From: Candidatus Peregrinibacteria bacterium CG11_big_fil_rev_8_21_14_0_20_49_14
GTDB lineage: Bacteria > Patescibacteriota > Gracilibacteria > Peribacterales > Peribacteraceae
DNA: 64,000 bases
Assembly (NCBI GenBank): GCA_002787035.1
Contig: PCVP01000025.1
Span: 5,076 to 69,075 of the forward strand
Reading direction: 5' to 3'
In this document: one piece after another, positions 2,769 through 58,780 of the stretch
Layout: every line of letters begins with the position of its first letter
Numbering within the stretch: position 1 is the first letter of the stretch
The notes under the pieces: model-generated
The model's input: the letters and a program-made list of their open reading frames with translations, nothing else
The model's database searches: none
Told to the model about the DNA's origin: nothing
Translations under genes and position numbers: made by a program

Positions 2769-3839
2769 ATGACCGTCGCTCCTCGTAACCGTCATGACCG
2801 TTTTTTAGAGCTCTTCCCCAAAGAGCCTGCGTTTCGCTTGCGCCAAATAGAGAAGGCATACTTCACGTCGTCTATGACCGGCTGGGAGAGTGTGACTACG
2901 CTTTCCAAAGATATGCGAACAGTGCTTGAGCGAGAAATTCCGTGGATCAGCTGCAAGGCGGTCACCACGCTTTCGAGTAACAGGGGAGACACGCACAAGG
3001 TGGTACTGGAAGGATACGACGGTCAATTGTATGAGAGTGTACTTATGGCAAACATGAGGAACCAATGGACTATTTGTGTCTCTTCTCAAATCGGTTGTGC
3101 CATGGGCTGCACGTTCTGTGCCACGGGCACCATGGGGCTGAAACGCAATTTATCTTCCGATGAAATCGCAGACCAGTATCGTTTCTGGAGAGCGTTTCTC
3201 ACAGAGCGGCCGGAACTTCCTCAACGCATAAGTAATGTCGTATTCATGGGTATGGGAGAACCGTTGGTGAATCTGGAAAACGTGAAAGCGGCCATTCATA
3301 CGTGGCTTCAAAATACGGATCTCGGACCTACGCGCATTACAGTTTCCACTGTAGGAGTGCTGCCCGTACTCGAAGAAATTTTAAAAGACCCTTTGTGGCC
3401 ACCCGTACGCATAGCAATCTCATTGCACAGTCCGGAAGAAGAAAGCAGGCGCAAAATAGTACCTACCACTGCGCCGCATTTTCACACCCGTCTTGCCAAG
3501 TGGACACATGATTATCAGGAAGTGCATGGCAATCGCAGGCACCATGTCACGTTTGAATACACGCTGATTTCAGGAGTGAACGACAATGCGGAAGAAGCAA
3601 AAAGGCTGGTGCAATTCGTTCGCAAGACCAGTGCGGTAAAAGTGAACGTGATTCCGTTAAACCCCGTAAGCGGAAAGGCGTTTACCGCCAGCTCTCGCCA
3701 GGGAATCGAAGACTTTAAAACAGTATTGCTCAATGCGGGAATAAATGTGACCGAGCGCAAAACCATGGGGCAAGATATAGCGGCAGCGTGCGGACAGTTG
3801 GCTCTTACCGTGAAGAGCGGAGGAAAGGTGGTGGGTTAA
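2769..3839 (+). CDS. rlmN: 23S rRNA (adenine2503-C2)-methyltransferase RlmN
   Basis: A radical-SAM methyltransferase of about 356 aa that methylates A2503 of 23S rRNA (and tRNA A37 in some bacteria). The CxxxCxxC iron-sulfur motif reads CAMGCTFC, followed by the family's ATGTMGLKRNL, NVVFMGMGEPL, STVGVLP, ISLHSP and EYTLISGVND blocks. The methyl-carrying C-terminal Cys is in AAACGQL. I chose the ATG at 2769 over an upstream TTG at 2754 because a -10-like TACAAT lies just before it and the conserved part needs no more. The stop overlaps the stop of the convergent downstream gene by 4 bp. Confidence 0.95.
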   Translation: MTVAPRNRHDRFLELFPKEPAFRLRQIEKAYFTSSMTGWESVTTLSKDMRTVLEREIPWISCKAVTTLSSNRGDTHKVVLEGYDGQLYESVLMANMRNQWTICVSSQIGCAMGCTFCATGTMGLKRNLSSDEIADQYRFWRAFLTERPELPQRISNVVFMGMGEPLVNLENVKAAIHTWLQNTDLGPTRITVSTVGVLPVLEEILKDPLWPPVRIAISLHSPEEESRRKIVPTTAPHFHTRLAKWTHDYQEVHGNRRHHVTFEYTLISGVNDNAEEAKRLVQFVRKTSAVKVNVIPLNPVSGKAFTASSRQGIEDFKTVLLNAGINVTERKTMGQDIAAACGQLALTVKSGGKVVG

Positions 3840-4519
3840 CATGCATCTGTTTTCTCGTATATCTGCACCTTTCCATGCGGACATGTTCGTTTGCAGGTAA
3901 ACCCCCGCATCATCAGCGCGACCGAGGGGTGGGCAGTGGGAAACACAGCTTCATCCACACTCAAAACAAGTGTGTTTGCATCGTTTAAAATCACCAGATC
4001 TCCGTTTTTGCTGCAGCGATCCAGCTCGTTGTAGAGCGCTTCGAGGTAGGGGATTACGACATCCGATACATTGGAAGGATCTTCGCAAAACTCTTTGAGC
4101 GGTTGCAGCCCCGAAATATAGATACCCCTCACGTATTGTCCGCTGTGTTCTTCCAGTTGTGCCATGAATGCCAATATATCGGTCAGATGCGTATGTATCG
4201 TCATGCCACCATCAGTGGTGCGGACGGGATTGTGTAATCGTGTCCCCAAAACATCGGCATCGTTATCTGCTTCCACATAGGTGCAGACACCAAGCAGTGT
4301 GGCGATATCGACAACAGAGAGATCTGCAGTTTCCGGCTTTGCAAGGCCACAGGGAACATCTATGAGTGTGCCTCCCAAAAGTTTGGACCGAAGAAACTCT
4401 CCGAGTTCGGTAAGAGCTCCGTCGGAGACACACGCTTTTTGCAGCCACTCTGTCCATGAAATTTCAGGCTCGCCGTACCATTGCATATTTTCAATGAACG
4501 CACCGTATTTCTGAGTCAT
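3836..4519 (-). CDS. Hypothetical protein with a methyltransferase-like core
   Basis: A 227-aa soluble protein. Residues 45-85 resemble the first half of a SAM-methyltransferase Rossmann fold (GGTLIDVPCGLAKP then ATLLGVCTYVEAD, an acidic residue ending a second strand), but the classical GxGxG is weak. A later strand is VILNDANTLVLSVDE. No confident family. It converges with rlmN with overlapping stops, and its start is preceded by the lipoprotein gene in the same direction, 34 bp upstream. Substrate and activity cannot be stated. Confidence 0.6.
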   Translation of the reverse strand: MTQKYGAFIENMQWYGEPEISWTEWLQKACVSDGALTELGEFLRSKLLGGTLIDVPCGLAKPETADLSVVDIATLLGVCTYVEADNDADVLGTRLHNPVRTTDGGMTIHTHLTDILAFMAQLEEHSGQYVRGIYISGLQPLKEFCEDPSNVSDVVIPYLEALYNELDRCSKNGDLVILNDANTLVLSVDEAVFPTAHPSVALMMRGFTCKRTCPHGKVQIYEKTDAC

Positions 4520-4553
4520 ACATTCAGTATTTCACCTTGTATCTCCCGTGTCT

Positions 4554-6083
4554 TCATAATTGCATATCAAATAAGATCACAGGGTCTTCCCAGTTGCGGA
4601 GTTCCTCTTCGGTCTGTACGTATCCTCGTAAGTCCGTTGCAGTTCCCTTGTGAACAGCAAGATGCAAATGAGGCCTTTCGCCGCTTGTTTGAGGGCTGAA
4701 ACCTTTTCCTAAACTTCCAATTATGTCTCCGCGTCGCAGCATATCTCCTCGTACGTAGTGTATGGTATCCATATTTAAATGACCGTACAGAACAGTGAAA
4801 GACCCGGCATTTGTTTCGCACGATTGCACCAACACTCCGCCGTAGCCTCGTATGGTATCCCGTAATTCCACTCTGCCTTTACAGAGAGCAGAGACGGTTA
4901 TGTTCGTTTCATCTTCCTCCGCAAAAACCTCAAAATCCGTTCCTGTATGGTAGCCACGGAATACTTCCGGTTGTATGGGTGATGTATCGGGATCTATGAA
5001 AATACCGAACGGCTTTTTGGTGATGCGACTCATATCGTAGACAGGCACCGTCACGGATTTCTCCCTAAGGTTTGATGCAAAAAACGATACGGTTCTTTGC
5101 ATAAAATCTTCCCACTTTGGAATGAACTCATGTTTTTCTCCTTCATACACGACGTAGTTCACGTCTTTGTTCAGGCTCGTAAGTTCTCGATGCAAAAATT
5201 CCGACCACTCTACCGGGACATCGCTATCCTTTGTGCCATGAAACAACAGAATGGGGTCATCTATCACATTCAGGGCGCTCAATGAGGAGAGGGCATTCCA
5301 GACTGCGGGACTTTGCTCCCTCGTACCGAGGAGTGCTCGCGTGTTATCTCCCTCTTCACGCATAGAGCGCCAACGCATGAAGTTTTCCCACGCATCGCTG
5401 TGCACAGGAGCGTACAGAACGACTGCATCTACCATTTCGGGATGTGCCGTGGCGATATTCAGAGTCACTCCGCCACCGAGCGAATGACCAAGCATGCCTA
5501 CACGGGAGGAGTCTACATTCGGCAGTCGGGCCTGACGCACGGCGTTGATGGCATTCGCACTGTCCATGCTGTATTCCAGTCCCGCATCGTACACCATCCG
5601 CGTATCCGGACTCGGGTCAGATTCTCCGTGTCCGCGGTAATCTGTGTGCAGTACGGCAAAGCCATGACGAGCAAGGTAGTCCTGCTCCCGTTTCAGGCCT
5701 CGGCCGACTGTGTAGACAGACGGTGCTATAAAACCGTGATTCAGAATAATCAACGGAAAAGGCCCTTCGCCCTTAGGAATGTTCAGTATGCCGCTTATCC
5801 GAAGCCCGTTGCTTCGGTAGGAAATTTGGTGGCGAGTGTATGCGGAGTTTTCTGCAAGAACAGTTTCGAGAGTGAGCCCTGTTCCCACGAGTTGCATACC
5901 GGAAAAATGTGCTATGGATAACTGCGACGGTACTGTTTCCATTTCCCTTTTGCTTGGCACATTCCTGCTCTGTGGCACAGGTACGGAATCTGTTTCCGTT
6001 TGAGGTGCTACGAAGGGGTTTGGCCACGGCTCGGCACATGCCGTGAGTAAGAGCACACAGCCCAAAACAATCATCTTCTTCAT
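4554..6083 (-). CDS. Lipoprotein fusing alpha/beta hydrolase and M23 peptidase domains
   Basis: A 509-aa exported protein with a lipobox (VLLLTAC, Cys near residue 16), so probably anchored to the outer face of the membrane. Residues about 80-345 form an S9/dienelactone-hydrolase type alpha/beta hydrolase: oxyanion region NHGF, nucleophile GHSLGGG, acid in HGTKDSDVP, and His in EGEKHEF. Residues about 370-500 form an M23 (LytM-like) domain with HTGTD for the first zinc ligands, YGHLN, and the second HxH in PHLHLAVH. All catalytic positions appear present in both halves. M23 enzymes cut peptidoglycan cross-bridges; the hydrolase may remove an ester or peptide from the same wall material. This domain pair is unusual. 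Confidence 0.85.
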   Translation of the reverse strand: MKKMIVLGCVLLLTACAEPWPNPFVAPQTETDSVPVPQSRNVPSKREMETVPSQLSIAHFSGMQLVGTGLTLETVLAENSAYTRHQISYRSNGLRISGILNIPKGEGPFPLIILNHGFIAPSVYTVGRGLKREQDYLARHGFAVLHTDYRGHGESDPSPDTRMVYDAGLEYSMDSANAINAVRQARLPNVDSSRVGMLGHSLGGGVTLNIATAHPEMVDAVVLYAPVHSDAWENFMRWRSMREEGDNTRALLGTREQSPAVWNALSSLSALNVIDDPILLFHGTKDSDVPVEWSEFLHRELTSLNKDVNYVVYEGEKHEFIPKWEDFMQRTVSFFASNLREKSVTVPVYDMSRITKKPFGIFIDPDTSPIQPEVFRGYHTGTDFEVFAEEDETNITVSALCKGRVELRDTIRGYGGVLVQSCETNAGSFTVLYGHLNMDTIHYVRGDMLRRGDIIGSLGKGFSPQTSGERPHLHLAVHKGTATDLRGYVQTEEELRNWEDPVILFDMQL

Positions 6084-6210
6084 ATACGAAGTATAGAAGG
6101 GAAGTGTGCGAAAGTAACTGCTTCATACTATCTCTAATACAAATAGAATAAGCATTTTTGCTCCGTAGCCAAATACTCCCCCTTCTTTCCATTATGTTTC
6201 AATTTATCTG

Positions 6211-6216
6211 TATACT
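6211..6216 (+). promoter_or_regulatory. -10 box upstream of the ECF sigma gene
   Basis: TATACT ends 9 nt before the ATG at 6226, leaving a 5' leader of only a few nucleotides and no Shine-Dalgarno sequence. No clear -35 was found; ATGTTT and TTTCAA lie in about the right zone. Confidence 0.35.
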
Positions 6217-6225
6217 GAAGTATGC

Positions 6226-6741
6226 ATGATTCCTAACCAAATTAATTCTTCGGAGGATCTTGAAGCAGTTTTTTATGCTCTTAACGAAGATATCTACGGT
6301 TATATTATGGGTCGTGTGCGTTCGCAAGTAGTAGCGGAAGATATCGCACAAGAAGTGTTTGTAAAGGCATGGGAAAAAAGAACTCAGTTTAACTCCGAAA
6401 AGGGTTCGTTGAAAAATTGGATTTATGGCATAGCACTCAACGCTGTCTATGATTACTTTCGCAGGCAAAAAAACAGAAGAACGGAGGAGTTGAGAGAAGA
6501 TTTTTCGGATGCGAAAGATATTAAGTCTGACACGGCAATAAAACTTCTGCATTCTCAAATAATGGATCAAATGCAGTTCCTCAGCCAAAAAGATCAAGAT
6601 GTTCTTCTTTTGCGCTACGCTCAGGAGCTTTCAGTAGAAGAGATAGCAGAGGTGATGAATATGAACTATTCGGCAACGAAAGTTGCGCTTCATAGAGCCA
6701 CAAAAAAACTAAAAGAAAGATGTAACCGTTTCATGCCGTAG
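6226..6741 (+). CDS. ECF-type RNA polymerase sigma factor
   Basis: A 171-aa sigma-70 family protein of ECF size. Region 2 (residues 10-80) includes VRSQVVAEDIAQEVFVKAWEK, the -10 recognising helix, and LKNWIYGIALNAVYDYFRRQKNRR. Region 4 (residues 112-165) includes LSQKDQDVLLLRY, LSVEEIAEVMNM and the recognition helix YSATKVALHRATKKLKE. Followed after 32 bp by a single-span membrane protein, the usual place for its anti-sigma factor. It probably directs the downstream surface-protein genes, though no operator data can be seen here. Confidence 0.93.
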   Translation: MIPNQINSSEDLEAVFYALNEDIYGYIMGRVRSQVVAEDIAQEVFVKAWEKRTQFNSEKGSLKNWIYGIALNAVYDYFRRQKNRRTEELREDFSDAKDIKSDTAIKLLHSQIMDQMQFLSQKDQDVLLLRYAQELSVEEIAEVMNMNYSATKVALHRATKKLKERCNRFMP

Positions 6742-6773
6742 GCGTATCAGCTTATGGCTTTCCATCTCTTACT

Positions 6774-8009
6774 ATGATTAACGATAACGACATTACACAG
6801 GCCCTTAAATCCCAAAAAAGTAAGCCGTCCAAAGAGTGGCAAGATTCCACCTTGAAACGCTTAAATGAAATATCTTCAAAAAATTATGTAACCGATACGT
6901 CGGGAATACGTATAAGCCTACGTGACACAGTGAAGTCACTGGCTTCTATTTTCTTTCCCACCTCTACTATGAATCCGATGCTTCTTAAATCCATAGGCTC
7001 TCTGACTGTGGCATGTGTTCTTGCTGTCGGTACATCTGCGGTAGCAGACAGTGCAACACCTGAAAATTCCGTTTTATATTCCATAGATAGGGGGTTTGAA
7101 AAGATAGAATTAGCATTTGCCGGACTAAGCGGCAATGCAGCGGTTGCTCACAAATATCTTTCTTTGGCAGAGGAGCGTGCTTTGGAAATAGATGTTCTTC
7201 TTGGCGGTGAAGCATCTGCACCCTTTGCATTCAGTCCTTTACTCATTGAAGTTGCCTATGCTCAAAGCATAGGAGCAAATGCAACCCTTCGTGCGCATAT
7301 CGAACTTTTGGTGGAAGATTGCAGCTATGCATTGCAAGAAGCGGTAAATATTTTGGAAAAAATTGCAGATTCTGCTTCTGCTACAACACGTACGAAACTT
7401 GCTATTGCTATTGAGACAACCTCACAGAGTATCTCTCAGCGGCTAGAAGCTAGTGTGCAAGCTACTGCCGAAACAGATGTACGCCCCGTAGTTTCCAAGG
7501 GTATCAGTACTGCAAAATCTATTGAGCGCCAAGCGCGCAATATGCAGGTGCAAGCTGACTCAGAAGTACAAGCAGAAGCTGAAGTATCACAAGACCACAC
7601 CATGGAAGATAATGATGATGATTCAGATAAGAACAGTGATACCTCTATTAAGGTGGATATCGATACTGGTCTTCCTCTTGTGGACATAAAGAATGTGGGG
7701 GGACTGAATATGAATCTGGAAACAGGCGACAATACTCAGAAGAACGATTCCGGTGTGATTTCTGAGACGAAGACACAGCAAGATACCGAGACATCTTCTG
7801 AATCAAAACAGGAATTTCAAGGTCAAAAACAGACTTCCGGTACGCAGGGTACTTTAGAAGTGGACTTCTCAAGTACTGTTCGTACCAAGACCACTGTAGA
7901 CGGCAATACAGAGACGAATACAGGGATACAGAACGATATAAATTCACAAGTAGAATCGAATATACAAACAGATATACAAGGCAGTACAGTACCTAATTTT
8001 TTGAACTAG
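6774..8009 (+). CDS. DUF5667-containing membrane protein, probable anti-sigma factor
   Basis: A 411-aa protein. Residues 1-65 are cytoplasmic and polar; one transmembrane helix lies at about 70-90 (LLKSIGSLTVACVLAVGTSA). Next comes a DUF5667-like outside domain beginning SVLYSIDRGFEKIELAFA and continuing with the YLSLAEERALEIDVLL helix. From about residue 260 the tail is acidic and Ser/Thr/Gln-rich (repeated QTDT, SETKTQ, QSNIQ-like stretches) and probably unfolded. Position right after an ECF sigma gene and the one-span topology support an anti-sigma role, though no classical zinc-binding anti-sigma motif (HxxxCxxC) is visible in the N-terminus. Confidence 0.7.
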   Translation: MINDNDITQALKSQKSKPSKEWQDSTLKRLNEISSKNYVTDTSGIRISLRDTVKSLASIFFPTSTMNPMLLKSIGSLTVACVLAVGTSAVADSATPENSVLYSIDRGFEKIELAFAGLSGNAAVAHKYLSLAEERALEIDVLLGGEASAPFAFSPLLIEVAYAQSIGANATLRAHIELLVEDCSYALQEAVNILEKIADSASATTRTKLAIAIETTSQSISQRLEASVQATAETDVRPVVSKGISTAKSIERQARNMQVQADSEVQAEAEVSQDHTMEDNDDDSDKNSDTSIKVDIDTGLPLVDIKNVGGLNMNLETGDNTQKNDSGVISETKTQQDTETSSESKQEFQGQKQTSGTQGTLEVDFSSTVRTKTTVDGNTETNTGIQNDINSQVESNIQTDIQGSTVPNFLN

Positions 8010-8040
8010 TTTTATATTTTTACTCATCTTTATTGTGAAC

Positions 8041-9009
8041 ATGAAGACCATTACAACATCGGCACTTGCTCTCTTTATCCCTATTACGGCATCTGCGTTA
8101 GGCATTCAGGTCATGATCGACGGTCAGGCAGTTGTATTCTCAGATGTTTCTCAATCCGCTTGGTTTTCTACTTACGTGCGCAGTGCCGCGGAAGCAGGCA
8201 TTGTGAGCGGGTACAAGAATAAGGAAGGAAAGCTGACAGGATTATTTGGTCCAAGTAATAACATTACAATTGCAGAAGCTCTGAAAATAGCAGTGGAAGG
8301 GGCAGGATACGACAATGAACTCTACGGTGCTCAAATCTCCAGTGGTGTTGATCATTGGGCGTCTTCGTATGTTTCTGTTGCGAAGGCAGAAGGGTTTGCT
8401 GTTATAGACGAACGAACACGGCTGGATACACCGGCAACAAGGGCACAAGTATCTGCCATATTTACGTCTGCGTTCGATGTCGATACCGAAACACCCGTAG
8501 GCAATCGCTACGATGATGTTACGTTTGGTACGAATCATGCGTTCTCCATCGAAGCGCTCAGTAGAGATGGCGTCGTCTCCGGAGATACGGATACAAGTGG
8601 TAAAGCTACCGGTACGTTTAGACCCACGGAGAGAATTAATAGGGCAGAAGTAGCAAAGATAGTAAGCGAAGCCCGTGCGAAGTACGGAACACCAGGTAAC
8701 GGTAAGAGTCCTTCGGATACAGAAGCTTTTCAGGCTGAAGACAACGTAGTCGCATATACAAAATCCGGATTTTCGCCGCAGGTATTACGTATAAAAAAAG
8801 GTGAATCTGTCACATTTTCAAATATGACAACCGGAGGACTTTGGGTAGCCAGTGATCCTCATCCCGCACATACCAATCTTTCGAGTTTCAATGCTCTTAA
8901 AGCTGTCATGCAGGGGGGTACATACACATATACCTTCACTCAAATAGGTAGCTGGAGTTACCACAACCATGCAGATGCCTCAATGAAAGGTACGATAATT
9001 GTTGAATAA
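8041..9009 (+). CDS. SLH-domain protein with C-terminal cupredoxin-like domain
   Basis: A 322-aa secreted protein; the ATG at 8041 gives a good signal peptide (MKTITTSALALFIPITASA). Two SLH units follow (FSDVSQSAWFSTYVRSAAE..GIVSGY near residues 35-100; YDDVTFGTNHAFSIEAL..GVVSGDTD near 155-220), which bind S-layer or wall polymer. Residues about 240-322 are a cupredoxin fold with IKKGESVTFSN, DPHPAHT and SYHNHADASMKGTIIV. In type-1 copper sites the ligand loop carries a Cys before the second His; here that place is His, so a blue-copper centre is unlikely, though His/Met could still bind copper. It is 31 bp after the DUF5667 gene and ahead of a strong hairpin. Confidence 0.87.
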   Translation: MKTITTSALALFIPITASALGIQVMIDGQAVVFSDVSQSAWFSTYVRSAAEAGIVSGYKNKEGKLTGLFGPSNNITIAEALKIAVEGAGYDNELYGAQISSGVDHWASSYVSVAKAEGFAVIDERTRLDTPATRAQVSAIFTSAFDVDTETPVGNRYDDVTFGTNHAFSIEALSRDGVVSGDTDTSGKATGTFRPTERINRAEVAKIVSEARAKYGTPGNGKSPSDTEAFQAEDNVVAYTKSGFSPQVLRIKKGESVTFSNMTTGGLWVASDPHPAHTNLSSFNALKAVMQGGTYTYTFTQIGSWSYHNHADASMKGTIIVE

Positions 9010-50674: not shown

Positions 50675-53600
50675 CTATGATGTGTGTTCTATCTTTGTGA
50701 ACCGAATGTGAACCGAACGGTCTCCGATTTCCATGGGATGATCTTCTCCTTTGGTATCTTCAAATTTTGCACGTGTTTCCTGCGCTATCAGTTCGCCGAA
50801 GTGCTCCAAAATATCATCCGCGCCATCAATACTGAGCGTGATGATATCCGTAAACGAAAGCCCAGCCTCTTTGCGCAGGCGTTGTACGGCACGAATAATG
50901 TCTCGTGCGTCTCCTTCCAGTTGAAGTTCCGGCGAAACTGTCGTATCCATACTCACCACCACACCGCGGTCCGCTGCGACGTTTTCGCCTTCTCTGCTTC
51001 TGTACACAAGCGTTGCCTCCTCGGGAGTGAGAGTTTCATCCAGTATCAAAATATTTCCGTTTTCTTCCATTTGGAATTCTCCCTCTTTTCCTGCGTGTAT
51101 AATTTCTTGTACACGCGCACCGAAACGAGGGCCCACTTTACGGGCGTCCACCTGTACGTAACTTTCAGCCAAGGTTTCGGGATCTTCAGCGAATGCAATT
51201 TCTTTGACGTTGAGCTCTTGTCGCAGCAGCGTGAGATCTTCTTCCGCAAAGCGTACGGAGTTTCGCAGTGCCGGTGGCAATGCCACTGTGGCTTTGGTAA
51301 GCGGCTGTCGGATTTTCACTTTTTGCTCCGCTCGTACGGAAAGGCCGAGAGAAACAATCAGACGCATCAGGCGATTTTTGGTAATGAGCTCCGATTCTTC
51401 CTTCGTGAGTTTTCTGGCTTCAGGCCAGTCTGTCATATGAATGGAATGATGCTCTTCTTCCACCAGATTTAAGTAGATGGCATCTGTAATGTACGGGCAG
51501 AACGGTGCCAGCAGCTGTGAAACGGTCAGTAAGACGTCATGGAGTGTCGCCAGCGCATCCTGCCTGTCTTCGTCTTCTCGGTCTCCCGAAGAATCCGGCA
51601 CATCTATGGCGCCCTTTCCTGCGAAGCGACGACGGGAGAGTCGAACATACCAGTTTGTAAGAGCGTCTATGGTTTCATGGATTTCCGCACAGGTGGCCGA
51701 AAGGTCGTAGTTATCCAGTTCTTTTGTCATTCTGTTTACCAAGTCCTGCGCCTCTGCGCGCATCCACATATCCAGAGGATGCTTTGAGTGACGCCTCGTT
51801 TCCGTTGCTTCGAACTCGGCGGCATTGGCGTAGGTTACGAAGAAACTGTACGTATTCCACAGAGGCAGAAGCACGTTGCGAACGGTTTCTTCCACCAGTT
51901 TCTCCGAAAAGCGCAGATCTTCCGCACGTACGGCGGGGCTGCTCATAAGCGAGAAGCGTACGGCATCCGCTCCGTGGCGAGACACGACTTCCAACGGGTC
52001 GGGGTAGTTACGGAGTCTTTTGCTCATTTTCTTGCCGTCTTCCGCCAAGACGATTCCGTTTACAATTACATTCTTAAACGGTGTTTCTTCAAAGAGTGCG
52101 GTAGAGAGTACCATGAGTGTGTAGAACCATGCTCTGGTCTGGTCCAAACCTTCTGCGATGAAATCTGCGGGGAATCCCGGCGGTTCTTTACGGTCCCTGT
52201 CGCCCAGTTCAAACGGATAGTGCTTCTGTGCGTAGGGCATGGAACCGCTTTCGAACCAGCAATCCAGAACCTCGGGAATTCTTTTGAGCCTCTGGTTCAT
52301 TGTAAATGTTTCGACCGATCCGTTTTCCGGTACGTAGGCGAGGGCTTCTTTGTAAGACAAGTTCTGTGACACGATTTTCATAAACTGCATGAGGCCTCGA
52401 TGGCCTGCTATCAGCACTTTTTTTCCGGCGTATTTCTCAAGCAGCATATCCGTCGCTTTCTCCACTCTCACGAGGTACTGCCCGAACGATTCGCCGCCTT
52501 CGGGTGTGCAGTTACGAATCACACCGTTTTTGGTTTCCACCGGAGCAGGCTGCATTTTTTGCACTTCCACGAGTGTTTTTCCTCCCCAGTTACCCAAATT
52601 GCGTTCCCGGAGTTCCGGCATGGGCTCTTCCATGGGTATGCCGAGCTCTTTCGAGAGAATCTCCGCCGTTTCTCTTGTTCGTTTCAAATCCGAGGACACA
52701 ATGCAGTCAAATTTCTGCCTTTTTAAGCTCTTAGCCAGGTCTACTATCTGCTTCTTGCCGTTATCGTTCAGCGGAATATCGCATTCTCCGCCTTGTAGTT
52801 TCTTCTCCTTGTTCCAGTCGGTTTCTCCGTGACGCACCATGGTGACTTGTATGCTTTTATCCGACTCGGAGCCCGCCCACGAAATATCATCCACTCTGTC
52901 TTTATGAAGATCCATTTGCTCGGTGCGCTCGTGATCCCAGAAGAATGTGAACGGCTGCGCGTACTTCGGGTACGGTTGGTGTGAGAGCTTTACGGGGTCT
53001 TGCTTGGTGAAGAATGCGCGTATGTTTTGCACAGGATCTGCGTGCGTTACCACCAGAATGTGCTCGCTGCGGTGCTTGGGGAGCGTTTCTTCCAGAAACG
53101 AACCGATGCGCTGCGCAACTTCGTCCCATGTTTCCATGCCTTCGAAATGGTAGATGCTTTCCGGTTTACCGGACTCCAGCTTATGAGCACGTTTCGCTTT
53201 GATGAACGAGAGATCAGAAAAATCCACCGTCTTTCCTTCGTATTTTCCGAACGATACTTCGCGCAAGCGCTCATCCACTACGACCTCGGCGTCCAGTTCC
53301 TTGGCAAGAAGCTCGGCTGTCTGCCTGGTACGAGCGAGAGGGGAGCAGTAAATGGTCTGAATTTGTTCGTTAGAAAAATGACGAGCGGTTCGTAGTACTT
53401 GCGATTTTCCCGCATCGGTAAGATCCGTACCCGGCTCTTCTCCCTGGTAAATGGGAATAAGATTTCCTTCGCTCTCACCGTGACGAATGGCGGTGATTTT
53501 CGTGAAGCGAATTTTCTTCTCTCTCATCAGGTCGTCTCTGCTTCCTATCACGTCCATATCGCCCGTATCGGAGCATCGCCAAATCGGGAGAGGCGTTCCC

Positions 53601-55132
53601 CAGTATCTGTTACGAGAAATTGCCCAGTCACGCGCACCTTCCAGCCAGTTTCCGTAACGGCCGTCACGAATATGGCTCGGTACCCACTCGGTTTTCGCGT
53701 TATTGGCGAGCATTTTACCCTTTATTTTCTCCACGCTCACAAACCACGAACTCGTTGCGTAATTCAGAAGAGGAGAGTCGCATCGCCAGCAATGCGGATA
53801 GCTGTGCTTGTACTTCTGGGTGCTGAAGACAGATCCCGCTTTCTCCAGATGTTCTATGACTTTTCTGTCCGTCTTGGTGGGGTCGTCCTTCGGTTTTACT
53901 TCCGTGCCTGCAAAATCGGTGACTGCATCCGTAAATTTACCGTCCATCGTAATGTGTTGCAGCAACGGCAGTTTTTCTCTTTCACCCGTACGAAAGTCAT
54001 CTTCTCCGAAACCGGGGGCGATATGCACCACGCCGGTTCCGTCATCCGTTGTTACGAAATCGCCTTCCACGATTTTGAATGCGGTTTTGCCGTACTCTTT
54101 CTCAAAATAGGGGAAGAGGGGCTTATATTTTTTGCCTATCAGATCTTTTCCTTTAAACGACTTTCCGGTGAGGCAAGGCATTTCAGGAATCGGCTCCCCC
54201 TCTTGTACGGTTTCAGCGAACAGTAGGGGATGAAGAATGCTTTTCGGATCTTTTCTGTTTTCCCAAACGTCCTTTGCAACAATCAATATTTCATCATCTT
54301 TCCTGAATTGTACGTACTCAACTGTCGGATTTACAGCCAAGAGCAAATTCCCCGGAAGTGTCCACGGTGTAGTGGTCCACGCAAGCACATACGTCTTGCT
54401 GCCCGCTGCCCGCCTGCCCTGAGCTCTGTCGAAGGGCTGCCCGCTGCCCGCTTCTTCCAGTTCAAACTTCGCAACCACAGACTGGTCGGTACTATCTGCG
54501 TAGCCCTGCGTCACCTCGAAATTGGAGAGGGGAGTGACGCATCGGGGGCACACATGCATGGGCTTGTGCCCTTCGTAGATCAGCCCTTTCTTCTGCAGTT
54601 CACTGAAAGCCCACCACATGCTCTCCATGTACTCGGGATCCATGGTGCGGTAGTCCCAGTCCATATCCACCCAGCGTCCCATGCGTTCCACCACGGAGCG
54701 CCAGTCTGACGTGTAGCGTTGCACCGATGAACGACAGAGATCATTAAACCAACCCACGCCCTTCTCCTCTATCTCCTGCTTGTTTCCTATGCCATGTTCC
54801 TGCTCTATCAGGTTTTCTATTGGAAGACCGTGGCAGTCCCACCCGAAGCGACGTTCCACATGCTTGCCGCGCATTGTTTGGTATCGCGGAATTACGTCTT
54901 TTATGGTTCCTGCAAGCAGGTGACCGTAATGCGGCAGTCCCGTGGCAAAAGGGGGACCGTCGTAAAATGAGAATGATTCTTGGCTGTTTCCCGAGAGACC
55001 GTCCAGCTTATCGCCGGAACCGGCACTGCGCATGTGCATGCTTCGCTTGAAGATATCTTCTTCTTTCCAATATTGAAGAATTCCTTCTTCGAGGTCGGGC
55101 AGGCTCTGTTTTGGATCTACGGGGTCAAACAT
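50675..55132 (-). CDS. ileS: Isoleucyl-tRNA synthetase with two inserted histidine-phosphatase domains
   Basis: From the ATG at 55132 the product is 1485 aa; related IleRS are about 1000-1100. Normal IleRS parts: HYGH (residues 68-71, the HIGH motif), TTPWTLPGN and TGVVHIAPGFGEDD in the editing domain, WFESGSMPYAQ, KMSKR (1035-1039) and the anticodon-binding tail. Extra parts: residues ~541-735 and ~761-945 are two histidine-phosphatase (phosphoglycerate-mutase-like) domains. Domain 1 has RHGE (550), LART (601-603), E625, H697; domain 2 has RHGE (767), LKRT (816-819), E843, H911. The IleRS motif DLHKDRVDD (741-749) lies between them, so they are two separate insertions. Residues ~227-246 are repeat-derived. 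All core motifs remain, so charging activity is likely kept. Confidence 0.95.
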   Translation of the reverse strand: MFDPVDPKQSLPDLEEGILQYWKEEDIFKRSMHMRSAGSGDKLDGLSGNSQESFSFYDGPPFATGLPHYGHLLAGTIKDVIPRYQTMRGKHVERRFGWDCHGLPIENLIEQEHGIGNKQEIEEKGVGWFNDLCRSSVQRYTSDWRSVVERMGRWVDMDWDYRTMDPEYMESMWWAFSELQKKGLIYEGHKPMHVCPRCVTPLSNFEVTQGYADSTDQSVVAKFELEEAGSGQPFDRAQGRRAAGSKTYVLAWTTTPWTLPGNLLLAVNPTVEYVQFRKDDEILIVAKDVWENRKDPKSILHPLLFAETVQEGEPIPEMPCLTGKSFKGKDLIGKKYKPLFPYFEKEYGKTAFKIVEGDFVTTDDGTGVVHIAPGFGEDDFRTGEREKLPLLQHITMDGKFTDAVTDFAGTEVKPKDDPTKTDRKVIEHLEKAGSVFSTQKYKHSYPHCWRCDSPLLNYATSSWFVSVEKIKGKMLANNAKTEWVPSHIRDGRYGNWLEGARDWAISRNRYWGTPLPIWRCSDTGDMDVIGSRDDLMREKKIRFTKITAIRHGESEGNLIPIYQGEEPGTDLTDAGKSQVLRTARHFSNEQIQTIYCSPLARTRQTAELLAKELDAEVVVDERLREVSFGKYEGKTVDFSDLSFIKAKRAHKLESGKPESIYHFEGMETWDEVAQRIGSFLEETLPKHRSEHILVVTHADPVQNIRAFFTKQDPVKLSHQPYPKYAQPFTFFWDHERTEQMDLHKDRVDDISWAGSESDKSIQVTMVRHGETDWNKEKKLQGGECDIPLNDNGKKQIVDLAKSLKRQKFDCIVSSDLKRTRETAEILSKELGIPMEEPMPELRERNLGNWGGKTLVEVQKMQPAPVETKNGVIRNCTPEGGESFGQYLVRVEKATDMLLEKYAGKKVLIAGHRGLMQFMKIVSQNLSYKEALAYVPENGSVETFTMNQRLKRIPEVLDCWFESGSMPYAQKHYPFELGDRDRKEPPGFPADFIAEGLDQTRAWFYTLMVLSTALFEETPFKNVIVNGIVLAEDGKKMSKRLRNYPDPLEVVSRHGADAVRFSLMSSPAVRAEDLRFSEKLVEETVRNVLLPLWNTYSFFVTYANAAEFEATETRRHSKHPLDMWMRAEAQDLVNRMTKELDNYDLSATCAEIHETIDALTNWYVRLSRRRFAGKGAIDVPDSSGDREDEDRQDALATLHDVLLTVSQLLAPFCPYITDAIYLNLVEEEHHSIHMTDWPEARKLTKEESELITKNRLMRLIVSLGLSVRAEQKVKIRQPLTKATVALPPALRNSVRFAEEDLTLLRQELNVKEIAFAEDPETLAESYVQVDARKVGPRFGARVQEIIHAGKEGEFQMEENGNILILDETLTPEEATLVYRSREGENVAADRGVVVSMDTTVSPELQLEGDARDIIRAVQRLRKEAGLSFTDIITLSIDGADDILEHFGELIAQETRAKFEDTKGEDHPMEIGDRSVHIRFTKIEHTS
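54397..54455 (-). repeat. Repeat-derived in-frame insertion in ileS
   Basis: Encodes SGQPFDRAQGRRAAGS between the editing-domain segments ELEEAG and KTYVLAWTTTPWTLPGN. The DNA has GCGGGCAGCGGGCAGC on both sides of CCTTCGACAGAGCTCAGGGC, i.e. the GCGGGCAGC repeat combined with the REP-like motif seen at 24173-24198. It keeps the frame. Confidence 0.75.
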
Positions 55133-56716: not shown

Positions 56717-58780
56717 TTACGGAGAGATACGAACGATTCGTGTGATATCGGACTGACTGAACAGATATTCGTAGGCTATGCGAACAGTGCCGATACGATC
56801 CGTATGAAAACCGAGTGTCACACTTGTACGGTCGAACTGAAGCAATGCAATAGGAGTATCAAGTAGATTTTGCAGGTTCGCAATGGTTTTAAGCGGGTTG
56901 CTACCCGGCTCAAAGGACCACATAAGCGCAAAGTAAAACGGATGTTCCAACAGAGCGGGGTTTCCAATGCTGAGCGGTACCAATTCTTTGGTATGGCGCA
57001 ATGGTTTTTCTTTTTCATTGCTCTCCACGGAAAGCACTTCTATGACATCCGGTCGTATTTGCAGTCCTATCACTTTCTTTCGCTGGAGGCTTTCTATGGA
57101 TGTACGCAGTATAAATCGAATTTTCTGAAGAGGAGTCAGTCTTGCAGTAAATTGAAAACATCGTGGGTCGAGCAGAAGCAACTCTTCTGCCAGACACTGT
57201 TCCTTCATAAGATCAAAGGGATTTACAATACCGCAACCGACGTTTTCAACCTCGCTTCTCTGCGCGCAGAGTTTTCGCAGCAGAGATTTTTTCCACTCCG
57301 TCGAATTGAAAGGATCCATGGAGATATCCAACATATGAGAAAGCAGCTCCTTTCCACGTCGGTATTTTTCACGTTTTGAAAGAACACGAAGTCCTTCCAC
57401 AAGCAGCTTTTGACCAAGTGATGAGTGCACGTAGTTCAGGTCTTCCGCCGTACGCTGAATACCTTTCTTTGCACTGATAATTTCTATGACATCGGCATCT
57501 TTAATAATGCGCTTCAAGTTTGACTCCTCGCTGTTTACTATCGCATTCGTTGCGTACAAACCGGTGTTTTCAGACACGTAATATGCCACATCCAACATGC
57601 TGGAGTGGCACGGAAGATCTATGAATTCCTGCTTCTCTCCCACTACATGCACACGGCAACGCTCGCCGAGAATTTCACTTTGTACGGCTTGGAAAAAATG
57701 CGGAAGATCTTCGGTATCGTTTTCGAGTGACGTAAGTTGTTCCACCCAAAGAGGCAACCGTCCCCACGGTTTCTCCCCTTTCTTTTGAAACGGTATCGTT
57801 GCGCCGAAACGCCCTTGAATATCCATATCTTTTGTCTGCACTATTATTTTTATGGGATTTCCCAGAGAGGACATTACCGTCGTATGAAGCGCCTGATACC
57901 CGTTGGCTTTGGGATGAGAGATATAGTCGTGAATATGGTGGGGAAGTGAAGAAGAAAACTGATGTAAGTAGTTCAGTATGCGGTAGCAGTCATCTTGCTT
58001 CTTTGTGATGATGTAGACGCGATAGAACGTTTCTATATGCTGGAGCAGCGTCATTTGTGCCTGCGTAGATTCGTAGATGCCGTGCAGATGCCTCGGACGC
58101 AGCTCAATGTCGGCGGACGCAAATCCGTTTTCTTTCATAAAGACTCTCATTCGTTGCACCCATCGTTGGAGATGCTTGATGTCTTTTTCTGTCGCAGCTT
58201 TCTGTCTCCGCTCCAGGAGATCGTACTCCGTAGGTTCCAGAGCCTTAAATGCCAGATCAGAAAGTTCTTGGTACCAGTTGCGAATACCGAGAAGGTTTGC
58301 AAGAGGACAGAATATATCTCGTGTTTCTCTGGCTATGCGTTGTTGTTTTTCCTTACGAAGGTGGTCGATGGTTTGCATATTGTGCAAGCGGTCTGCCAAT
58401 TTGATGAAAATGACTCGCATATCGTGACCCATGGCACGGAACATTTTGCGAATTGACTGCATGTTTCGTTCATTGGGGCCTATGTCTTTTTCAATTTTTT
58501 CCACTTTGGTTACGCCTTCAACCAGCTTTGCAACCGTAGGGCCAAAATCTTTTTTAATGTCTTCTATGGTTATATCCGTATCCTCCACGGTGTCATGCAA
58601 CAGTGCTGCGGCTATGGTTTCTTCTCCCGCATGGATACCCTTAAGAATGTGAGCGACCGCAATGGGGTGTTCTATGTATGGGGAGCCGGAAGCTCTTTTT
58701 TGACCTTCGTGGGCTTTTTTTGCCGTCTGCAAAGCCTTACGATACGGGCCTTTGGTCGCAGAATGTGAAGATTTGGTCAT
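56717..58780 (-). CDS. RelA/SpoT-family protein, hydrolase with decayed synthetase
   Basis: A 687-aa protein. The N-terminal HD hydrolase is intact: YIEHPIAVAHIL (H38) and AALLHDTVEDTDIT (H62-D63). The synthetase region (~195-345) is recognisable (RPRHLHGIY for RPKHxYSIY, ISHPKANGYQALHTTV) but the acidic catalytic positions are missing: IETFYRV where family members have D-L-x-A-x-R-V, and KIIVQT in place of the E-x-Q-x-R-T Glu. TGS (~370-435) and downstream regions are present. So it probably hydrolyses (p)ppGpp and cannot make it. Start 58780 is preceded by TATAAT (58796-58791) 10 nt away. Confidence 0.88.
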   Translation of the reverse strand: MTKSSHSATKGPYRKALQTAKKAHEGQKRASGSPYIEHPIAVAHILKGIHAGEETIAAALLHDTVEDTDITIEDIKKDFGPTVAKLVEGVTKVEKIEKDIGPNERNMQSIRKMFRAMGHDMRVIFIKLADRLHNMQTIDHLRKEKQQRIARETRDIFCPLANLLGIRNWYQELSDLAFKALEPTEYDLLERRQKAATEKDIKHLQRWVQRMRVFMKENGFASADIELRPRHLHGIYESTQAQMTLLQHIETFYRVYIITKKQDDCYRILNYLHQFSSSLPHHIHDYISHPKANGYQALHTTVMSSLGNPIKIIVQTKDMDIQGRFGATIPFQKKGEKPWGRLPLWVEQLTSLENDTEDLPHFFQAVQSEILGERCRVHVVGEKQEFIDLPCHSSMLDVAYYVSENTGLYATNAIVNSEESNLKRIIKDADVIEIISAKKGIQRTAEDLNYVHSSLGQKLLVEGLRVLSKREKYRRGKELLSHMLDISMDPFNSTEWKKSLLRKLCAQRSEVENVGCGIVNPFDLMKEQCLAEELLLLDPRCFQFTARLTPLQKIRFILRTSIESLQRKKVIGLQIRPDVIEVLSVESNEKEKPLRHTKELVPLSIGNPALLEHPFYFALMWSFEPGSNPLKTIANLQNLLDTPIALLQFDRTSVTLGFHTDRIGTVRIAYEYLFSQSDITRIVRISP

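Follow-up and report, generated by a model that had tools for sequence, protein, structure and literature searches.

Histidine phosphatase domains within isoleucyl-tRNA synthetases of Patescibacteria

Few enzymes are as conserved as aminoacyl-tRNA synthetases, and the catalytic domains found inserted in them so far are, to our knowledge, mainly editing (deacylase) domains. The isoleucyl-tRNA synthetase (IleRS) gene in a 64,000-nucleotide stretch of DNA from Candidatus Peregrinibacteria bacterium CG11_big_fil_rev_8_21_14_0_20_49_14 (the whole stretch is called the window here) raises the question of whether two histidine phosphatase (RHG) domains genuinely reside inside such an enzyme, how they came there and what they might do.

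The window synthetase and its two RHG domains

The initial annotation of the window described an ileS product of about 1485 aa with two complete RHG domains. This description was borne out: the product is 1485 aa long, its first methionine (MFDPVDPKQ) lies at 55132, the residue numbers are exact, and Pfam returned two PF00300 stretches together with tRNA-synt_1 (split), Anticodon_1 and DUF5915 (E 2.5e-80; table 1). The TIGR00392 score was 846 bits against a curated cut-off of 621, and the HIGH-like PHYGH and the KMSK at residue 1035 both remain, as had been claimed. By its profile score, HIGH, KMSK and anticodon-binding domain, the protein is an isoleucyl-tRNA synthetase that is predicted to charge tRNA-Ile with isoleucine. 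No second IleRS was found in the window genome (1.44 Mb, 98.6% complete), in which the remaining matches are ORFs of ValRS, LeuRS or MetRS size. The window also encodes a RelA/SpoT-type protein (HD + RelA_SpoT + TGS; 56717-58780), which lies two genes away from ileS, on the far side of an asparaginase.

Table 1. Position of ileS and of the motifs and domains of its product in the window
Feature	Position	Strand	Basis
ileS, isoleucyl-tRNA synthetase, TIGR00392	50675..55132	-	profile match; sole IleRS in genome
HIGH motif of synthetase (DGPPFATGLPHYGH)	54920..54961	-	motif position
RDWAISRNRYWGTPLP, immediately N-terminal of site A	53585..53632	-	motif position
RHG domain 1 (D1, site A), residues ~541-735, PhoE/PSP-like	52928..53512	-	profile, alignment, fold
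D1 catalytic RHGESEGN (R550 H551)	53462..53485	-	motif, alignment
D1 LARTRQ 599-604, second catalytic Arg R601	53321..53338	-	motif, alignment
D1 second catalytic His H697	53042..53044	-	motif, alignment
IleRS motif DLHKDRVDD (741-749), separating both inserts	52886..52912	-	motif position
RHG domain 2 (D2, site B), residues ~761-945, CobC/PhoE-like	52298..52852	-	profile, alignment
D2 catalytic RHGETDWN (R767 H768)	52811..52834	-	motif, alignment
D2 LKRTRE 816-821, second catalytic Arg R818	52670..52687	-	motif, alignment
D2 second catalytic His H911	52400..52402	-	motif, alignment
DCWFESGS, immediately C-terminal of site B	52241..52264	-	motif position
KMSK motif of synthetase	52019..52030	-	residue 1035

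The two RHG inserts add about 390 residues to the protein. They scored 150.6 and 127.6 bits with PF00300 (cut-off 21.7), and these are the only PF00300 domains of the window genome. The residues of histidine phosphatase branch 1 (R-H, second R, acid Glu, second His) are complete in D1 and D2, and the catalytic residues lie exactly where they had been placed (RHGE 550, LART 601 and H697; RHGE 767, LKRT 816 and H911). The further claim that the domains occupy two neighbouring loops, and not one tandem cassette, was confirmed by the DLHKDRVDD motif (741-749) between them. D1 and D2 are thus predicted, from their sequences, to be catalytically competent RHG phosphatases.

The window domains share their fold and the R-H-R-E-H set with branch 1 phosphatases (PF00300; PhoE/Hydrogenobacter PspA/CobC), from which they differ in being nested in a synthetase and in falling, singly, below every NCBIfam cut-off. 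Their nearest NCBIfam models are dPGM_arch/PspA for D1 and ribazole_cobC for D2, and the MutT1 model NF052459 is a weak match of D2. With the CobC model TIGR03162, D2 reached 122.6 and D1 85.9 bits against a cut-off of 162.9; the whole protein scores 198, above the cut-off, because the two domains add up. With the glycolytic dPGM model TIGR01258, D1 reached 23.3 and D2 41.9 of the 81.7 bits required. Since this cut-off was missed and the genome encodes a 505-aa PF01676 (iPGM-type) protein, a role of the domains as glycolytic mutase is unlikely.

An AF2 model of residues 1-1200 (pLDDT 87.6, pTM 0.87) had IleRS structures as its best PDB matches (7d5c, 8wnd, 8c8v and 1ile). D1 folded alone (pLDDT 87.4) adopted the PGAM-like alpha/beta fold; D2 was modelled within residues 1-1200 only. 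In the fold comparison D1 came closest to PhoE, to phosphoserine phosphatase of the PspA type and to 9mmh, a phosphatase of the riboflavin pathway (Z about 22; Z 22 to 4ij6, 1ebb and 1h2e), so that phosphatases and not mutases head the list. The D1 stretch 644-660 combines residues conserved across the order in the alignment with low model confidence, and might close over the pocket as a mobile cap.

Insertion sites across Patescibacteria

The initial annotation had named the joining of separate genes in assembly as one finding that would overturn it. With D1 as query, the site-A insert was found in 69 of the 74 genomes of the order Peribacteria, covering 39 of its 40 genera and always in frame; because the same domain sits in frame in so many genomes, an assembly error is excluded. 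Named relatives in the order are Candidatus Peribacteria and Peregrinibacteria. Two of the five genomes without a D1 match (G004 and G055) showed no C-terminal fragment of ileS; the other three (G024, G047 and G065) were outside that sample. ORFs of at least 1433 aa, the length expected with two inserts, occur in 47 genomes of the order, and at least two RHG domains were confirmed directly in those fetched. Eight genomes have site A alone (ORF 1255-1377), and one (G051) has three RHG domains, A followed by two B domains in tandem. D2 evolves fast and has been lost repeatedly within the order. Many relatives in the order additionally keep a free RHG gene.

RHG insertions were also sought in other patescibacterial IleRS, as had been proposed, and many carry them: besides A and B, two further sites, C and D, as well as insertions in ValRS came to light. 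Across the class and phylum, IleRS ORFs measure about 950-1070 residues without an insert, 1120-1300 with one and 1440-1570 with two or three, three being the maximum per protein. Reading the genes defined four sites. Site A follows GSRDDL and precedes DLHxxxVD; site B follows DLHxxxVD and precedes RIPEVLDCWF; site C lies about 80 residues past KMSK, after FFxTYANIDGW; site D follows DCWFESGAMPYGSVHYPF. Most of the order combines A and B, A alone also occurring there as well as in Yanofsky-, Nomura-, Taylor-, Jorgensen- and Giovannonibacteria. Family f9 has B only, and C only was seen in f6, f22 and f13; A is combined with C in f5 and in one f22 genome (G171), and B, D and C occur together in G090. 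Many patescibacterial IleRS have no insert, which argues that it is dispensable for charging.

ValRS with one to three RHG domains occurs in at least three families (f6, f15 and one f53 genome), mostly with the insert at the corresponding position, flanked by the WWG motif and DTLDTWFSS. The window genome's own ValRS has no RHG domain. In both synthetases the RHG domains lie mostly in the catalytic half.

Among the 80 loci that the scan listed, the insert-free IleRS loci from other phyla showed no RHG insert. One apparent occurrence outside Patescibacteria, a site-A insert in PowLak16_MAG37, titled Spirochaetia, was rejected; this MAG is probably mislabelled, because the record is small (400 kb) and its IleRS is placed among patescibacterial ones.

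Several loci depart from these patterns. The CP1 region of the L116 (G482) IleRS (residues ~290-480) is about 130 residues longer, and the addition has no Pfam match. In G439 (L351:2451-5877), ileS with a site-A RHG is spread over two overlapping frames, by frameshift or sequencing error. The ileS ORFs of L138 and L139 extend N-terminally beyond the IleRS start, by 430 and 914 open codons, with no Pfam match in these stretches. RHG domains were also seen fused C-terminally to a SerA-like D-2-hydroxyacid dehydrogenase protein (L277:2178-3608, G164), possibly joining dehydrogenase and phosphoserine phosphatase, and to a membrane protein that by eye looks DedA/SNARE-associated-like (L348:1323-2660 and L349:1867-3177).

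Origins, constraint and free relatives

A tree check of D1 and D2 as possible duplicates had also been suggested. A recent tandem duplication is ruled out: the two are 24% identical and belong to separate, older clades of site-A and site-B domains. D1 falls among site-A domains from other families; D2 is placed with those at site B in f9 and f6 (support 97/90 and 91/84 in two trees). A single clade for site A is compatible with the data (AU p 0.34). Site C had separate origins in f6, f5, f22 and f13, and the ValRS inserts form one further clade (100/98). On a quick tree of the IleRS core, insert status needs 21 changes, which implies frequent gains and losses, or transfers. On the evidence of these trees, Patescibacteria took up the RHG domain into IleRS on several occasions, and into ValRS independently.

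We then considered whether the inserts are conserved as enzymes. The set of IleRS-inserted domains comprised 109, two of them truncated; in all 107 complete ones R1, H1, R2, E/D and H2 are present, with E changed to D in one. In the alignment, the catalytic set appears incomplete in about 6 of the 22 ValRS copies. Mean identity is 60% for D1 against 63% for the synthetase core, and 41% for D2. The dN/dS of D1 was about 0.07 and 0.06 in two pairs and that of D2 0.21 in one, synonymous sites being near saturation in further pairs. These sequence comparisons show D1 to be under purifying selection. The site-C domains of f6 evolve faster than their own core. The strong constraint on the catalytic residues supports an active phosphatase.

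Fusion or neighbourhood of genes is a classical sign of functional linkage, and free RHG genes beside ileS provide a second form of it. In a Patescibacteria UBA4067 locus (L176), a free RHG gene (4721-5308) lies directly upstream of an insert-free ileS (5305-8112), overlaps its start and groups with site-A inserts in trees. A phylum search with this RHG returned first one free gene (in G433) and then 16 matches in long site-A synthetase ORFs, which precede every further free RHG. The IleRS of G433 is insert-free, and its A-type free RHG does not adjoin ileS. In a second locus (L111, G150), ileS with site C, VOC, tRNA_edit PF04073 and RHG follow one another, adjacent or overlapping; this free RHG is sister of the G090 site-D insert (98/87 and 98/88 in two trees), on whose side the branch is long. 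One clade (96/96) unites all sampled site-A inserts, the site-C inserts of f6 and f13, the site-D insert and exactly two free genes. Both of these adjoin ileS, and the remaining sampled free RHGs of the class fall outside the clade.

An RHG gene near ileS in Urinicoccus was rejected as IleRS-associated, being outside this clade; in this non-patescibacterial genus and in Phycicoccus the proximity may be chance. Directly upstream of the free RHG and ileS of L176 we noted a RhuM-Fic protein (3716-4720), itself preceded by an argS-like gene.

A possible role at the synthetase and its alternatives

We lean towards the reading that the RHG domains are active accessory phosphatases of isoleucine and valine charging, acting in cis, or operon-coupled where free. 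The window protein would be a functional type-2-like IleRS with two RHG phosphatases in its connective loop, between RYWGTPLP and DCWFESGS; these would act in cis on charging, and the free versions would serve as operon-coupled accessory enzymes. In RHG enzymes the first His takes the phosphate from a monoester, giving a phospho-His intermediate. The first His of the inserted domains would do the same, with the two Arg binding the phosphate, the Glu serving as acid/base and water releasing phosphate from phospho-His. We infer that the domains are active and meet their substrate at the synthetase.

As to that substrate, the initial annotation had put forward AMP, diadenosine polyphosphate, an alarmone or a modified substrate as candidates. 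Removal of a phosphate from a tRNA 3' end suits an RHG enzyme chemically. Our first-choice guess, a doubtful one, is that the 3' end of the tRNA is blocked by phosphate or pyrophosphate, whose removal would make damaged or toxin-modified tRNA chargeable again. Pyrophosphorylation of the CCA end by toxins has been described (PMC11559606). With low confidence we extend the idea to repair or proofreading in cis, by IleRS and ValRS, of phosphorylated tRNA (or of phosphorylated enzyme). We know of no phosphatase-type quality control in any aminoacyl-tRNA synthetase. IleRS and ValRS have a class Ia core in common; this, together with the editing gene in one RHG-ileS operon, points to tRNA or its charging and not to a free metabolite.

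The main rival, which we consider unlikely, is that a generic metabolic phosphatase with a housekeeping task outside aminoacylation is parked in permissive surface loops of a protein whose gene is always expressed. The window genome has PF00300 inside its IleRS only, as would suit this explanation, yet many relatives in the order keep a free RHG besides. Among known folds, broad-specificity PhoE and phosphoserine phosphatase come nearest, other proteins also carry RHG fusions (the SerA-like protein of L277 and the DedA-like-looking membrane protein of L348 and L349), and IleRS tolerates another domain elsewhere, as NCBIfam ileS_w_GNAT illustrates. Repeated separate recruitment into IleRS and ValRS, however, would not be expected of an unrelated function, nor would free relatives beside ileS. 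It is improbable that the domains drive the reaction forward by hydrolysing the AMP or PPi that amino acid activation releases. By textbook chemistry AMP, which has a phosphomonoester, is formed at the synthetase, and in IleRS and ValRS the RHG domains are located mainly in the catalytic half, but such by-product removal would suit every synthetase, and the inserts were seen in these two only. Moreover, PPi removal by RHG is not needed, because the window genome has two PF00719 pyrophosphatases, and for a reduced genome the destruction of AMP would presumably be a waste.

HipA-type kinases modify synthetases close to KMSK-like motifs, and some RHG proteins (SixA, PGAM5) have protein substrates. 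Such enzymes lend some plausibility to the removal of phosphate from the synthetase itself, for example from a KMSK-loop serine hit by a HipA-like kinase toxin. We nevertheless regard this as quite improbable: the insertion sites vary in chain distance from KMSK, the nearest folds are small-molecule phosphatases and no kinase came to notice next to ileS. Very improbable is a structural or tRNA-binding appendage without catalysis, which the loss of catalytic residues in some ValRS copies would fit and their completeness in all 107 complete IleRS-inserted domains contradicts.

The architecture has partial precedents. Compared with IleRS (TIGR00392), of the IleRS2-like kind, the window protein keeps all core motifs and adds its ~390 residues. 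NF040702 (ileS_w_GNAT) describes an IleRS with an extra enzyme domain, there an N-acetyltransferase; the window protein scored 274 against its 1999 bits, and the Pfam scan of the window IleRS returned no GNAT. RHG is found on a nucleic-acid enzyme in the actinobacterial RNase H/CobC-type phosphatase NF005567 and tethered to a nucleotide-processing enzyme in mycobacterial MutT1 (NF052459), but in both it is terminal and no synthetase is involved. MutT1 consists of a Nudix domain and this terminal RHG. For an RHG-synthetase fusion we found no paper in the openly accessible journal literature and no NCBIfam model. An inserted catalytic domain in a synthetase is thus of a known kind; the RHG function may be new. 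Repeated and selected insertion over much of Patescibacteria suggests that tRNA charging in this very large and mostly uncultured bacterial group is accompanied by a phosphate chemistry that has gone unrecognised, and the question is directly testable with recombinant protein. Annotation pipelines should be alert to these genes, which score simultaneously as synthetase and as CobC-like phosphatase.
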